A DNA stretch of 58,356 nucleotides. Source: Candidatus Bathyarchaeota archaeon (lineage in GTDB: Archaea; Thermoproteota; Bathyarchaeia; Bathyarchaeales; Bathycorpusculaceae). A model generated the notes under the pieces. It was not told the origin of the DNA. It saw only the letters and a list, made by a program, of their open reading frames with translations, and searched no databases. Location: NCBI GenBank assembly GCA_029881805.1, contig JAOULW010000013.1:1-58356 (forward strand), given 5' to 3'. The number at the start of each line of letters is the position of its first letter. The first letter of the stretch is position 1. The position numbers and the translations under genes were made by a program. Positions 1 through 58,356 of the stretch are shown piece after piece.

Positions 1-363
<363 letters not shown>

Positions 364-529
364 CGCTCGAGATGTCGGGCGTTATGCGGTGTCTGGGCGA
401 TATTTTTGAAAAAGGTGAATCTTGAACGTAGGTGCGGGTAAAACGGGGCTTGTGCGTGGCGATTGTGTTTATGAGCTGTTGTGCTCTGAGTGATTAAATA
501 CCTTATCTTGTATGAGAAAATTTCAGCCG

Positions 530-51110: not shown

Positions 51111-51716
51111 CTATTGAGATATACCCAACTTCTGATATATCCTCTGTTTATTTGCTTCAACGTTCTTTGCTACATCAGTGAAAAGATTATTTTCATGCGA
51201 GTCAATAGCTACAGTCAATGGGCCAAACTCTTCAACCTCAAAAATCCACATGGCTTCAGGCATACCCAAATCAAACCATTCAACACGTAGAACACTCTTA
51301 ATAGCTTTCGCAGCTAATATCGCGGCCCCACCGGTGAAGGCACCATAAACGGCACCGTACTTCGCCATAGCATCAGTTGTCCTCTTACCCATTCCCCCCT
51401 TGCCGATGACTACGCGAACCTTGAAGTTCTTTACGAACTCGTCCTCGAAAATGTCCATCCTCGTGCTCGTCGTTGGGCCTGCTGCTACTGCAACCCACTT
51501 GTCTCCTTGCTTGCTCATCACGGGACCGCAGTGAAAGACAGCCAAGCCTTCAAGGTTTATGGGCAAAGGTTTTCCTTGCCTAAAATATTCTAAGGCTCTC
51601 TGATGAGCCTGATCTCTCGCGGTCACCATGGTTCCAGTTATGTAAAGCATATCGTTTACCTTAAGTTTGCGTATGTCTGCCTCAGAAATTGGCGTTTGAA
51701 GTTTGTAAACTACCAT
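51111..51716 (-). CDS. Fumarate hydratase, class I, beta subunit
   Basis: 201 residues, the C-terminal half of the two-subunit iron-sulfur fumarase that interconverts fumarate and malate. Motifs: TPISEADIRKLKVNDMLYITG in outline, GPVMSKQGDKW, AGPTTSTRMD and VIGKGGMGKRT. ATG 51716 has GAGGTG 6 nt upstream; the stop of the alpha gene lies 12 nt before it. The two genes are certainly one operon. Some archaeal pairs also act on tartrate-like acids, but fumarate is the default. Confidence 0.93.
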   Translation of the reverse strand: MVVYKLQTPISEADIRKLKVNDMLYITGTMVTARDQAHQRALEYFRQGKPLPINLEGLAVFHCGPVMSKQGDKWVAVAAGPTTSTRMDIFEDEFVKNFKVRVVIGKGGMGKRTTDAMAKYGAVYGAFTGGAAILAAKAIKSVLRVEWFDLGMPEAMWIFEVEEFGPLTVAIDSHENNLFTDVAKNVEANKQRIYQKLGISQ

Positions 51717-51728
51717 TTCTTCCACCTC

Positions 51729-52619
51729 TCACATTTCCATTTTACGCGTTAAATATTCAACCGTTTCATCTGCATTAATCCTCGCAGAAGCTCTTCTCGA
51801 AGCCCAGCAATTGAAAGCGACAGATGCTGGAAAAGATGCTGGATGCCTAAAGGCATAATCTACATGCACGCCCAAAACTGTAGTTTTTCCGCCGAGTCCC
51901 ATGGGACCAATCCCAGTCATGTTCGCAGCCTCCAATATTTCTTTTTCAAGCTTGGCAATTTCAGAATCGGGATTAGGTTCGTTTAAGGGCTTTAGTAGCG
52001 TCTTCTTGGCCAGTTTCATAGATATGTCTGCCCCGCCTCCGATGGCGACGCCTATAATGGTCGGGGGGCAAGGTTTGGCCCCTGCATTTATCACAGTGTC
52101 AACAACAAACTTTTTCAATCCGGTTATTCCCTGGCCTGGTACGAGCATTCCTGTCACGCAAACGTTCTCAGAGCCTCCGCCCTTCGTCATGACAGTTAAT
52201 TCTATGCTGTCGCCTAGCACGATTTCCCAGTTCACAAACGGAATAAATCTTCCAGTGTTGTCTCCACTGTTCCTCTGCGCAAATGGGTCAACAGCGTTCG
52301 GTCTTAAAGGAACTTCCTTCGTAGCTCTCCGCGTGGCGTTTATCAGTGCCCCTTCAACTTTCTCCAAGTTTTTCGCTTGAGTGCCGGCTTTGATGTAGAA
52401 GATTATTGTGCCTGTGTCTTGACAAACTGGAGCCTTATGTTTCTCTGCAAGTTCGATATTGTTCAGAATTGCGTTCAGCTGCGTCTTCCCCGTTTCGCTG
52501 GTTTCCTCTGCGTACGCCTTCTTTAACGCTTGCTTAACGTCATCAGGAATGTAAATGACTGCTTGCTTTATTATGTTAAAGGCAACGTTTTCCACGATTT
52601 TTGCCTTTTCCAATTTCAT
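51729..52619 (-). CDS. Fumarate hydratase, class I, alpha subunit
   Basis: 296 residues. The three cysteines that bind the 4Fe-4S cluster are Cys66 (APVCQDTG), Cys184 (AKPCPPTIIG) and Cys271 (AFNCWA). RNSGDNTGRFIPF and MTKGGGSENV supply substrate contacts. The cluster is oxygen-sensitive, which fits an anaerobic life. Promoter region lies between it and radA. Confidence 0.94.
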   Translation of the reverse strand: MKLEKAKIVENVAFNIIKQAVIYIPDDVKQALKKAYAEETSETGKTQLNAILNNIELAEKHKAPVCQDTGTIIFYIKAGTQAKNLEKVEGALINATRRATKEVPLRPNAVDPFAQRNSGDNTGRFIPFVNWEIVLGDSIELTVMTKGGGSENVCVTGMLVPGQGITGLKKFVVDTVINAGAKPCPPTIIGVAIGGGADISMKLAKKTLLKPLNEPNPDSEIAKLEKEILEAANMTGIGPMGLGGKTTVLGVHVDYAFRHPASFPASVAFNCWASRRASARINADETVEYLTRKMEM

Positions 52620-52775
52620 TTACCTCTTGTTAGCTAGTTTTATGAAAAAACCGTGTACTTATATCTTATCTAGTATTAACGCAAGACCTAACATTAGCTC
52701 ATGCTTGCGAAGAGGGTTCAAGTTTTCACTTTAACCTATCTCTCCATGGATTACACGCTATTGGGGTTCGTGTGT

Positions 52776-52784
52776 TTTAAATAT
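52776..52784 (+). promoter_or_regulatory. TATA box for radA
   Basis: TTTAAATAT predicts a transcript start near 52805, 28 nt before the radA ATG at 52833. The - strand fum promoter must lie in the same 213-bp gap. Confidence 0.5.
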
Positions 52785-52832
52785 GACTTGGCTTAACCTT
52801 TTCATGAATTAGGAAAGAGGAATGAAGAACTT

Positions 52833-53843
52833 ATGACAGAAGAAGAGAAGGAAGAAGTGGCCCTCAGAAGGAAGTATGAGCTTTTAGAGGACCTCCCCGG
52901 GATTGGACCCGCCACAGCCCAAAAACTGAAAGAAATGGGATTTCACACCGTTGAGTCTTTGGCCATGGCTACCGCCCGAGAATTGGACCCTGCTGGCATC
53001 GGCGAAAAGAAGGCTTTCGCCATCATCGAAGCAGCCCGCTCTTCAATTAGTGTTTCTTTTGTTAGGGCAGATGAACTTCTCCGAATGCGACAGAGTGTTC
53101 TGCGTTTGACTAGCGGAAGCAAAGCGTTAGACGGAATGATCGATGGAGGATTAGAAACGCAGACAATAACAGAGTTTTACGGAGAATATGGCACTGGAAA
53201 AAGCCAGCTATGCCACCAATTGTGCGTGAACGTTCAATTGCCCCCTGAAAGAGGTGGACTCAACAGTGCTGCATTGTACGTTGATACAGAGAATACTTTT
53301 AGAACAGAACGAATTGTGCAGATGTCTAGACATTTTGGTCTCAATCCAGAAGAAGTTGTTAAGAACATTATTTATGCTGAGGCTTACACTTCTGATCACC
53401 AAATGTTCTTGTTAGATAATGCTGATGAAGTGATTAAGGCGAATAACATAAGACTGATAATTGTTGACTCCTTGACAGCTCATTTCAGAAGCGAATACAT
53501 TGGACGGGAGATGCTAGCTCCAAGACAACAGAAGCTTAACAAACACATGCACAAACTTATACGCTTGGCAAGAGCCTTCAACGCCGTAGCCGTTGTTACG
53601 AATCAGGTCATGGCCAAGCCAGACGTGTTCTTTGGAGACGCTGTTCATCCCATTGGCGGCCATGTCGTCGGCCACACGAGCCACACGCGTGTCTATCTGC
53701 GGAGAGCTGCACACGGGCCTGTGAGAATTGCTCGTTTAGTTTCAAGTCCATACTTGCCCGAAGGAGAGGAAATATTTAAAGTAACTGAGAACGGCATAGA
53801 GGATGTTTCTGAAGACGAGAAACCGAGATCTCGTGGGCGTTGA
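52833..53843 (+). CDS. radA: RadA recombinase
   Basis: The archaeal RecA/Rad51 protein for strand exchange. 336 residues: N-terminal helix-hairpin-helix domain (LEDLPGIGPATAQKL), the FVRA polymerisation motif (76-79), Walker A GEYGTGKS (117-124), Walker B LIIVDS (Asp212) and the L2-region HPIGGHVVGHTSHTR. No intein. The next gene begins three nt after the stop, and encodes a small protein with a clamp-binding end. Confidence 0.97.
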   Translation: MTEEEKEEVALRRKYELLEDLPGIGPATAQKLKEMGFHTVESLAMATARELDPAGIGEKKAFAIIEAARSSISVSFVRADELLRMRQSVLRLTSGSKALDGMIDGGLETQTITEFYGEYGTGKSQLCHQLCVNVQLPPERGGLNSAALYVDTENTFRTERIVQMSRHFGLNPEEVVKNIIYAEAYTSDHQMFLLDNADEVIKANNIRLIIVDSLTAHFRSEYIGREMLAPRQQKLNKHMHKLIRLARAFNAVAVVTNQVMAKPDVFFGDAVHPIGGHVVGHTSHTRVYLRRAAHGPVRIARLVSSPYLPEGEEIFKVTENGIEDVSEDEKPRSRGR

Positions 53844-53845
53844 AC

Positions 53846-54304
53846 ATGCCTATTCCCCAAGCCTTGGTTACGCGCTATTTCCAGCTTTTGGTTAGTAGAC
53901 AGTTTAGTGAAGCCGAGCGTGAATTGGAGAGGCTTAAGCAGAAAATGCAGAAGACAGAGTGGAACCGAGGTTATTTTAGAGCTTTGTTTGGAATGCTACT
54001 TGCACGGCGGTCTAAAAACAACGATGCAGGCTCATTTTTTTCGAAGCTGGATTTTGGTGATAAAGCGGCGTTACACGACTATAGGCGGGAGTTTTTGGAT
54101 CACACGAAGAATGGGCTTCATGGAGATTTTGACCGCGGATTTTTTTCAGCTTGGACTGATTGTATCCGAGTGCTTAGCAGAATGCAAATCGCAAATTCAC
54201 CAAACGCGAATAGTGCGACTTCTAAAAATGGAAAAGTTGAGACATTAAAAAATGATAAAAGCCAAGCAACCATGGGGAATTTTCTTAAAGGAAAAGAAGA
54301 CTAA
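53846..54304 (+). CDS. RadA-linked small protein with C-terminal PIP-like motif
   Basis: 152 residues from ATG 53846 (154 if TTG 53840). The body is helical (YFQLLVSRQFSEAERELERLKQKM, RGYFRALFGMLLARRSKNND) and highly charged; no enzyme motif. A flexible Asn/Ser-rich linker follows, then QATMGNFLKGKED at the very end: Q-x-x-M-x-x-F-L, the archaeal form of the PCNA-interacting (PIP) box. Position after radA and this tail suggest a repair or replication accessory factor. Its stop overlaps the convergent membrane gene by 4 bp. Confidence 0.75.
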   Translation: MPIPQALVTRYFQLLVSRQFSEAERELERLKQKMQKTEWNRGYFRALFGMLLARRSKNNDAGSFFSKLDFGDKAALHDYRREFLDHTKNGLHGDFDRGFFSAWTDCIRVLSRMQIANSPNANSATSKNGKVETLKNDKSQATMGNFLKGKED

Positions 54305-54633
54305 ACAATCGGTGGCGGTGGCCCCGCGATAATTGAATACAGAAGAACCCATAAGACTATCCAAGTTAGGAAGTAGACGCCTATTCCCATCGTGAAGAGT
54401 TTCTGCGGTTTTTCCACTTGAAGCGCAAACATGCGCTTTATGACGAGATAGTGAGATATTAGGTAGATTACTATTGCCAAAGAGAGACTATTCATAAAAG
54501 TGCTCAATATGAATGCATCATTTCTTATCATGTCGGTCGCAATTCCATAACCTAGGCAGATTACGGCTGCAATGATGCCTAGCACCAACTTTAGCCAATA
54601 CACCTTTACCATGGGCTTCATTGCTTTCTGCAC
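54301..54633 (-). CDS. Small three-helix membrane protein, unknown function
   Basis: 110 residues with hydrophobic segments at about 10-32, 42-62 and 82-103, and an end GPPPPIV. No motif recognised. It lies between radA's partner and the NEMF homologue, convergent with the former and divergent from the latter. Confidence 0.65.
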   Translation of the reverse strand: MQKAMKPMVKVYWLKLVLGIIAAVICLGYGIATDMIRNDAFILSTFMNSLSLAIVIYLISHYLVIKRMFALQVEKPQKLFTMGIGVYFLTWIVLWVLLYSIIAGPPPPIV

Positions 54634-54675
54634 CTTTGCATTTTATATTTTGGTGGATTATGATTTTAAAGTTGT

Positions 54676-54685
54676 CTATTTATAG
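54676..54685 (+). promoter_or_regulatory. TATA box for the NEMF/Rqc2 homologue
   Basis: CTATTTATAG predicts a start near 54705, so TTG 54723 rather than the upstream ATGs at 54621-54693 should begin the protein. Confidence 0.5.
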
Positions 54686-54722
54686 TTTGACAATGGTTAT
54701 AAACTTTGAAAGGCGAATCAGG

Positions 54723-56774
54723 TTGAAAAGGAAGGAGTTCACAAGTTTTGATGTTGCCGCTGTTGTCCGAGAGTTAAGAGAAAAAATTTTGGATTCTCGC
54801 GTCAGCAAAATCTACCAGTTAGATGGCAAAACCCTACTTTTCAAGCTCCACAAACCTGACAACCCTGCCTTTCGGCTGGTTTTAGAAGCAGGAAGACGGC
54901 TACACTTAACATCTTATGTCATGGAGAAGCCTTTAGTGCCTCCTGCCTTTTGCATGGCTTTAAGGAAACATCTGCGAAGTGCATGGCTAACTAATGCGAA
55001 ACAGTACGAGTTTGAAAGAGTTGTCGTTCTCTCCTTCAAAACTAAAACCAGTGAGTTACAACTTGCTTTGGAACTTTTCGGCGATGGCAACATAATTCTA
55101 GTGGACGGTAAAGGAAAAATTTTGCAGGCTTTAACGTATAAACGAATGCGAGATCGAAACATCTTGAGAAACGAAACCTTTGCTTTTGCACCCTCTAGCG
55201 GACAGAATCCGTTTAATGTTAACCGAGAAGAGTCTATAGAAGAGTTAAGAAGCTTTGGTGATGTTGAGATTGTTCGGGCTATTACGCGTCTCTTAAGTAT
55301 TGGGGGGATTCACGCTGAGGAAACTTTGTTGAGGGCTGAAATTGACAAAACCAAAGCATGCGCTGCATTAGGCAAGAAGGAGTTAAACACGATTTTTGAT
55401 GGTTTGCAGAATTTGCTTTTGCCCATTGTAAGTGGCAAGTTGGAGCCTTGCGCGGTTTTGGGCAAAGATGGCGAATTTATCGATGTTGTGCCTTTCAAGC
55501 TTAAACGTTACGAGAGCTTCAAGTGTCAGCCTTATGAAAGTTTCAATGCAGCTTTGGACGAGTTTTATGTTCGGGTCATTGCCGTTGAGAAGGCTAAGGC
55601 TGGCGTGGAAGTTGATGCCTTAAAACGTGAGGCTGAAAGGCTTAGACGTGTTATCGAAAGTCAAGAGAAGACTTTGACTGAAGCTAAAGCCAAGGCAGAG
55701 CGTAGTAGGGAGATCGGAGACGCCATCTATGCCAATGTTGGCGAGTTGCAGGTTTTGTTGGATAGATTTTTGGTTGCCAAAGAGAGTGGAAAAGAATGGA
55801 GTGAGATTGTTTCGGAGATTTTGGCTGATAAGCGCCGCGGTGTCAAGCCATGGGTGTTTTTTGATTCTTTTGACTCCAGAAATTTGGTGGTTAATGTTTG
55901 TTTGGATGATTCGCGGTTTGGTTTGAATTTACGTGGAAAATTGTTTGAGAATGCTGGGCAATTTTATGAGCAAAGTAAGCGAGCTATGCAGAGGTTGAAC
56001 GGCGCAAAAGCGGCTTTAGAAGATACGAGCAGAAAGCTGATGGAGACAGAAGCCAAAATTAGGGAAACCGAAGCCTTGGAGCGTGTTAAACCAACCGAAG
56101 CGGTTGAAGAGCTTGCTAGGCGCAAAGTTAAGCGTAAAGAATGGTTTGAAAAATTCCGATGGTTTGTCTCTTCTGATGGATTTTTGGTTGTTGCTGGCAA
56201 AGATGCAGTAAGCAACGAAGTTTTGGTCAAGAAGTATACTGAGCCGCATGATGTTGTTTTTCACGCAGATGTTGTGGGCGCACCTTTCGTGGTTGTCAAA
56301 ACAGGCGATAAAAAGCCTAGTGAGCAATGCCTACGGGAAGCTGGAGAGTTTGCTGCCGCTTTTTCTAGGGGTTGGCGGGAAGGCTTCGGAAGCGTGGACG
56401 TTTATTGGGTCAAGCCCAACCAGTTAAGCAAGGGTGGACCTTCAGGCGAGTCTGTGCCTCACGGAGCATTCGTTGTCAGCGGACAGCGCAATTGGCTGCG
56501 TGGAGCTCCGCTTAAATTAGCTGTTGGCGTGGTTGTTGGAAATGAAAACGAGATAGAGTTTGTTGGTGGACCTGTTGATGCGGTTAAGGCTAAAGCTAAT
56601 GCATACATGGTTGTTGTGCCGGGAGACCTAACTGGCAAAGAATTGTTTAGGCTTGTTTTGAAGGGTTTGGCGGGAAGAATGTCAAAGGAACAGCGGGAGA
56701 AAGTGTTGAAGGCTTCGGTTGAAGAAATAAGAGAATTTATTCCATATAACAAAGGCAGAATTTTAGAAACCTGA
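54723..56774 (+). CDS. NEMF/Rqc2/RqcH-family ribosome quality-control protein
   Basis: 683 residues from TTG 54723. Domains: NFACT-N (FTSFDVAAVVRELREKIL in outline at the start, RKHLRSAWL, then YKRMRDRNILRNETFAFAP), a helix-hairpin-helix part (about 185-270), a long coiled coil (about 300-370 and 430-480), and NFACT-R at the C-terminus (KWFRWFVSSDG-like, DVVFHADVVGAPFVVVK). Family members bind 60S/50S subunits with stalled peptidyl-tRNA and add Ala/Thr tails. MRDRNI holds the conserved Asp-Arg pair region. The start is set by the TATA box and by KRKEFTSFD, the usual N-terminus. Confidence 0.92.
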   Translation: MKRKEFTSFDVAAVVRELREKILDSRVSKIYQLDGKTLLFKLHKPDNPAFRLVLEAGRRLHLTSYVMEKPLVPPAFCMALRKHLRSAWLTNAKQYEFERVVVLSFKTKTSELQLALELFGDGNIILVDGKGKILQALTYKRMRDRNILRNETFAFAPSSGQNPFNVNREESIEELRSFGDVEIVRAITRLLSIGGIHAEETLLRAEIDKTKACAALGKKELNTIFDGLQNLLLPIVSGKLEPCAVLGKDGEFIDVVPFKLKRYESFKCQPYESFNAALDEFYVRVIAVEKAKAGVEVDALKREAERLRRVIESQEKTLTEAKAKAERSREIGDAIYANVGELQVLLDRFLVAKESGKEWSEIVSEILADKRRGVKPWVFFDSFDSRNLVVNVCLDDSRFGLNLRGKLFENAGQFYEQSKRAMQRLNGAKAALEDTSRKLMETEAKIRETEALERVKPTEAVEELARRKVKRKEWFEKFRWFVSSDGFLVVAGKDAVSNEVLVKKYTEPHDVVFHADVVGAPFVVVKTGDKKPSEQCLREAGEFAAAFSRGWREGFGSVDVYWVKPNQLSKGGPSGESVPHGAFVVSGQRNWLRGAPLKLAVGVVVGNENEIEFVGGPVDAVKAKANAYMVVVPGDLTGKELFRLVLKGLAGRMSKEQREKVLKASVEEIREFIPYNKGRILET

Positions 56775-57715: not shown

Positions 57716-58356
<641 letters not shown>

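Follow-up and report, generated by a model that had tools for sequence, protein, structure and literature searches.

Directly behind the recombinase gene radA, a Bathyarchaeia genome (G000, contig C12) encodes a 152-aa protein, here termed radA-downstream protein (RDP), which represents an undescribed protein family with a known kind of clamp-docking tail. The tail carries a PCNA-binding (PIP) motif through which, judging from its sequence, RDP very probably binds PCNA. A functional tie of RDP to RadA is plausible and is proposed with moderate confidence.

The RDP gene and its neighbours

The window, i.e. the whole 58,356-nt stretch of DNA analysed, has partial archaeal LSU/SSU rRNA genes at its ends (1–382, plus strand; 57716–58356, minus strand). 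The RDP gene occupies positions 53846–54304 on the plus strand, with an ATG at 53846 and a stop codon at 54302–54304. This start is supported by residues M1-P2, which were invariant in 48 homologues. The upstream gene (336 aa; 52833–53843, plus strand) ends with a stop codon at 53841–53843, leaving an intergenic gap of 2 nt. It encodes a genuine RadA, with scores above the cut-off (NF003301/TIGR02236; 440.9 bits for TIGR02236, cut-off 361), and the sequence-only reading had thus correctly placed the RDP gene directly after radA. A convergent gene (54301–54633, minus strand) encodes a small predicted membrane protein of 110 aa, which is hydrophobic by eye, conserved in position and matched no Pfam family. 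Beyond it lies another conserved neighbour, an NFACT-family gene (Rqc2/FbpA-like; 54621–56774, plus strand; PF05833, 224 bits; PF05670, 110 bits). The genes of a two-subunit fumarase (51111–52619, minus strand; PF05683 and PF05681) are located divergently on the 5' side of radA.

A predicted helical core of an undescribed family

AlphaFold2 predicted a folded core for residues 1–112 (53846–54181, plus strand) with five long helices (residues 5–16, 20–33, 38–55, 73–88 and 94–112) and a short helix (64–67). Confidence was high, with a pLDDT mostly >90 in the core and a pTM of 0.81 for residues 1–115. RDP matched no Pfam or NCBIfam family above the cut-off and no PDB sequence above chance, in line with the earlier description of a helical protein without a known family. 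Foldseek searches of the PDB with the full and trimmed models returned no match better than E ~2. In a comparison with TPR-like proteins, Tah1/Rap were listed weakly by Foldseek (E ~5 or worse), and weak matches to ANAPC8 occurred in 9/44 members. No description of the gene was found in literature searches. The conserved core residues R10, F12, E22-A23, R25, W39, G42-Y43, A46-L47-G49, F83, D96, G98, F100 and A102-W103 are candidates for a partner surface or for maintaining the fold.

A conserved PIP-like motif at the C-terminus

The core is followed by a disordered, variable linker (residues 113–138; 54182–54259, plus strand) with low pLDDT (<50 at residues 117–135) and high pN/pS. Behind it lies the PIP motif QATMGNFL (residues 140–147; 54263–54286, plus strand). 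Translation showed it within the last 13 residues (QATMGNFLKGKED), as had been claimed; residues 132–152 read ETLKNDKSQATMGNFLKGKED, and the tail ends in DKSQATMGNFLKGKED. A lone match of this kind proves little, since the 7-residue form of the motif was also present in the last 25 aa of 3/56 long reading frames in the window. The motif gains its significance from conservation across homologues.

The RDP gene was present in 90/101 related genomes and in 65/66 of those of best quality; the named relatives of the window genome are Candidatus Bathyarchaeota. Within the family of the window genome, 48/49 homologues carried Q-x-x-[ILM]-x-x-[FY]-hydrophobic at the C-terminus (counted in tails as Q..[ILMV]..[FYW][hydrophobic]), compared with 0.09 motif-bearing homologues expected from shuffled tails. 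The sole exception, L025, ends early; a match to residues 116–149 lies just downstream of its open reading frame, and by its sequence it is a frameshifted copy. More widely, 67 of the 80 named Bathyarchaeota loci carried the motif, usually ≤20 residues from the C-terminus. With synonymous change near saturation throughout the comparison, pN/pS was 0.20 in the core, 0.70 in the linker (residues 117–136) and 0.25 in the motif (residues 138–147). Gln140 is invariant within a disordered, fast-evolving linker. Chance resemblance of the tail to a PIP would be in keeping with a single-sequence match rate of a few percent, but this conservation and purifying selection refute it, and we consider it extremely improbable.

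The agreement with the archaeal PIP consensus, which the sequence-only reading had asserted, is partial. Q140, I/M/L143 and F/Y146 were each found in 48/48 tails of the window's family and T142 in 44/48, so that the glutamine, the hydrophobic residue and the first aromatic residue stand. Since position 8 was aromatic in only 8/48 tails and otherwise L/I/V/M, with Leu in 31/48, the textbook form QXXhXXaa is not fully matched at its second aromatic residue.

RecA-family proteins bind FxxA tails. The RDP tail might therefore be a short linear motif for a partner other than PCNA, e.g. for RadA through an FxxA-type motif. We regard this as very unlikely, because no tail (0/48) had Ala three residues after the aromatic of the motif and because the conserved Gln and the spacing are those of a PIP. 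An FxxA/BRC-type recombinase-binding reading of the tail was rejected on the same absence of FxxA (0/48 tails).

Probable docking to PCNA

A close precedent for the motif is EndoQ of Thermococcus kodakarensis (TkoEndoQ), whose QRSITEFL binds PCNA with a KD of 55 nM and whose deletion abolishes binding (PMC4858679). EndoQ is an endonuclease with an unrelated core, but its C-terminal PIP has the same pattern as that of RDP, including Leu at position 8 (PMC4858679). In addition, 43% of confirmed PIP motifs lack one aromatic residue, and archaeal PIPs are located at the extreme C-terminus (PMC6881253). Likewise, the RDP motif lies C-terminally within a disordered tail, as in archaeal PIP clients. 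The TkoEndoQ precedent, the frequency of PIPs that lack one aromatic residue and the C-terminal placement make PCNA docking by RDP very likely. The PIP tail proposed earlier is therefore strongly supported at the level of sequence, by its conservation, its C-terminal site, the disordered linker, purifying selection and the TkoEndoQ pattern.

The window genome contains one PCNA gene (PCNA_N), and PCNA_N was also found in five relatives. As yardsticks from the same genome, FEN1 ends in TTLEKWFV and RNase HII in QKKLI, and the large subunit of RFC showed no C-terminal PIP. When the tail peptide was searched against the PDB, no match was returned.

Adjacency to radA and the conserved block

In the order to which the window genome belongs, radA was directly upstream of the RDP gene in 88/88 radA-locus homologues. 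A profile search of the Thermoproteota recovered the RDP core in other classes (E ~1e-5 to 1e-20), and in most of these distant homologues a RadA-family gene was directly upstream. At four loci (L232, L235, L240, L244) the RDP gene directly followed a divergent RadA paralogue.

The surroundings are conserved as well. The order fumarase (two genes, minus strand), radA, RDP gene, small membrane protein (minus strand) and NFACT (51111–56774 in the window) recurred in ~150 loci, and this block links recombination, a ribosome-quality-control-type gene and fumarase. At L236, L238, L239 and L243 the RDP gene is located between fumarase and NFACT without radA. Since the whole block is conserved and some distant lineages lack radA in it, adjacency to radA alone does not show RadA binding; as judged from gene order, it is partly a property of the whole block. 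The earlier term "RadA-coupled" is supported by near-universal adjacency in Bathyarchaeia and, with exceptions, in other classes. The stronger part of the sequence-only reading, a factor that joins the recombinase to the clamp, goes beyond what gene order shows and is weakened by the conservation of the block, by the several lineages without an adjacent radA and by the many tail-less orthologues beside radA.

Alternatively, RDP could serve repair or replication by binding PCNA without contacting RadA, and share the operon only because both genes lie in an old conserved block. Its conserved company, fumarase and NFACT included, and the lineages that keep the RDP gene without adjacent radA favour this explanation. 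It is opposed by the unbroken radA–RDP order (88/88), by the f24 loci, where the radA–RDP pair persists without detectable NFACT or membrane-protein neighbours in the stretch examined, and by the RDP genes directly behind divergent RadA paralogues. We consider it less likely than not.

Several loci showed further peculiarities. In L241 and L248 (f32) the core domain adjoins the membrane protein gene (in L241 also NFACT) and not radA; in G231 radA is encoded elsewhere in the genome. The RDP gene of L232 is followed by an SFM1-like gene (protein arginine methyltransferase, PF04252), and the following gene in L237 and L240 is also SFM1-like, judged by eye. In the genome of L029 (G021:C33:149753-151840) the RadA matches fall into separate parts of a single frame, which is the pattern that an intein would leave; RadA reading frames were 712–786 aa long in G021 and in L205, L209 and L231. 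In L193 a single 436-aa frame covers both RadA and the core domain, and its junction removes the RadA C-terminus. This apparent fusion was set aside as evidence, since the deleted RadA end more likely reflects an assembly fault or a local deletion.

Sister families and the history of the tail

Variants of the motif occupied the same slot in sister families: QTSIIQY or QTRIIQY in f7 (10/10), QTDIFQFL in f2 (3/3), QRTLFDY and QSLIVDY in part of f6 and QITIEAFV in one member of f4. QTRLIHY is another sister-family form. Some f6 members end in a short VQTKL(T/V), which resembles the RNase HII ends QTKLL/QKKLI of the same group. RDP orthologues without a PIP tail were found in f3, f5, f8, f9, a genus of f6 and part of f4. 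Homologues lacking the motif, which had been named as evidence against the proposal, therefore exist in part of the order and among most distant homologues; the window's family is not among them. Many of the orthologues without the tail do have radA, and no PIP was seen on inspection of the RadA C-terminus in the tail-less lineages. Two loci of genus g43 of f6 (L087 and L089, in G078 and G087) encode an additional core domain that is not located at radA and carries an N-terminal sequence resembling a classical C2H2 zinc finger (CLLCGKTYETHRGLSSHLIRVH).

Mapped on the RadA tree, the PIP-tail trait needs ~7 changes, at least 3 of which are forced by well-supported branches. Therefore, either the core is older than the present tail, or the tail has been lost more than once. 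The core might be an ancient accessory of RadA-family proteins that regulates the filament or acts as a helical adaptor, with the tail as a lineage-specific add-on that only raises its local concentration at forks. These changes of the tail and the occurrence of the core across Thermoproteota beside RadA-family genes speak for such an origin, whereas the exceptions without radA adjacency speak against it. It is a serious possibility, falling somewhat short of an even chance; it overlaps with the explanation we prefer, a PCNA-tethered adaptor probably acting on RadA, and differs from it in emphasis.

Comparison with known PCNA clients and RadA accessories

The NucS gene of T. kodakarensis overlaps radA, and the protein has a C-terminal PIP (PMC4929162). 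NucS/EndoMS of the Thermococcales and RDP share a C-terminal PIP, but the former is a two-domain, RecB-like nuclease, whereas the RDP core is helical. No NucS match was found for RDP in Pfam/NCBIfam, and the model is all-helical. NreA and NreB are archaeal non-core proteins with a C-terminal PIP, no known enzymatic activity and a link to PCNA-mediated repair (PMC4929162). They are ~400 aa long and often have a Cys4 domain, in contrast to the 152 aa of RDP, which had no match to the Nre family in Pfam/NCBIfam. The Thermococcales inhibitor of PCNA (TIP) is a small non-enzymatic PCNA binder, as is predicted for RDP. However, TIP has 64 aa and a proposed N-terminal PIP and is restricted to Thermococcales, whereas RDP belongs to Bathyarchaeia and has a C-terminal motif. 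By analogy, RDP appears to resemble the non-core archaeal PCNA clients NucS, NreA and TIP (PMC4929162), while being a member of none of them. With RadB and other RadA paralogues it shares genomic company and a possible role as a RadA accessory. These are RecA-fold ATPases, in contrast to RDP, which has an all-helical model, no Walker motifs and no Rad51/RecA match.

Proposed role and significance

We hypothesize that RDP is a helical adaptor that is tethered to PCNA and probably acts on RadA; for this combined reading we see an even chance. RDP and RadA would probably be made from one transcript, and the flexible RDP tail would dock to the PCNA ring at its PIP pocket. Most likely, the helical domain would then act on RadA or on a RadA-bound intermediate at clamp-marked DNA, either behind forks or at recombination-primed synthesis. 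It may recruit or regulate the RadA filament, or the 3' end of a D-loop may be passed to a clamp-bound polymerase. The most economical model would have RDP co-produced with RadA and held at PCNA as a helical adaptor. The tail-less orthologues, which keep the core without a PIP, and a core that gave no hint of fold or family speak against this reading, as do the conserved block and the lineages with no radA beside the gene. More tentatively, and as somewhat less likely than not, we propose that the family, widespread in archaea and undescribed, serves RadA as a dedicated accessory and that in Bathyarchaeia it has come to bridge the RadA filament and PCNA physically.

To our knowledge, the loading of archaeal RadA and its link to replication are poorly known. 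A literature search found no direct RadA–PCNA bridge. In the Pyrococcus abyssi network, primase was linked to RadA, and PCNA to Mre11/Rad50 (PMC3820547). Across a large archaeal class, radA is followed by this near-universal, unnamed gene, and much of the class conserves the clamp-docking tail, which makes RDP a concrete and cheaply testable candidate. If true, a RadA–PCNA bridge would connect strand exchange with DNA synthesis that depends on the clamp. As the core also occurs outside Bathyarchaeia, the Thermoproteota may have a recombinase accessory that has been overlooked.
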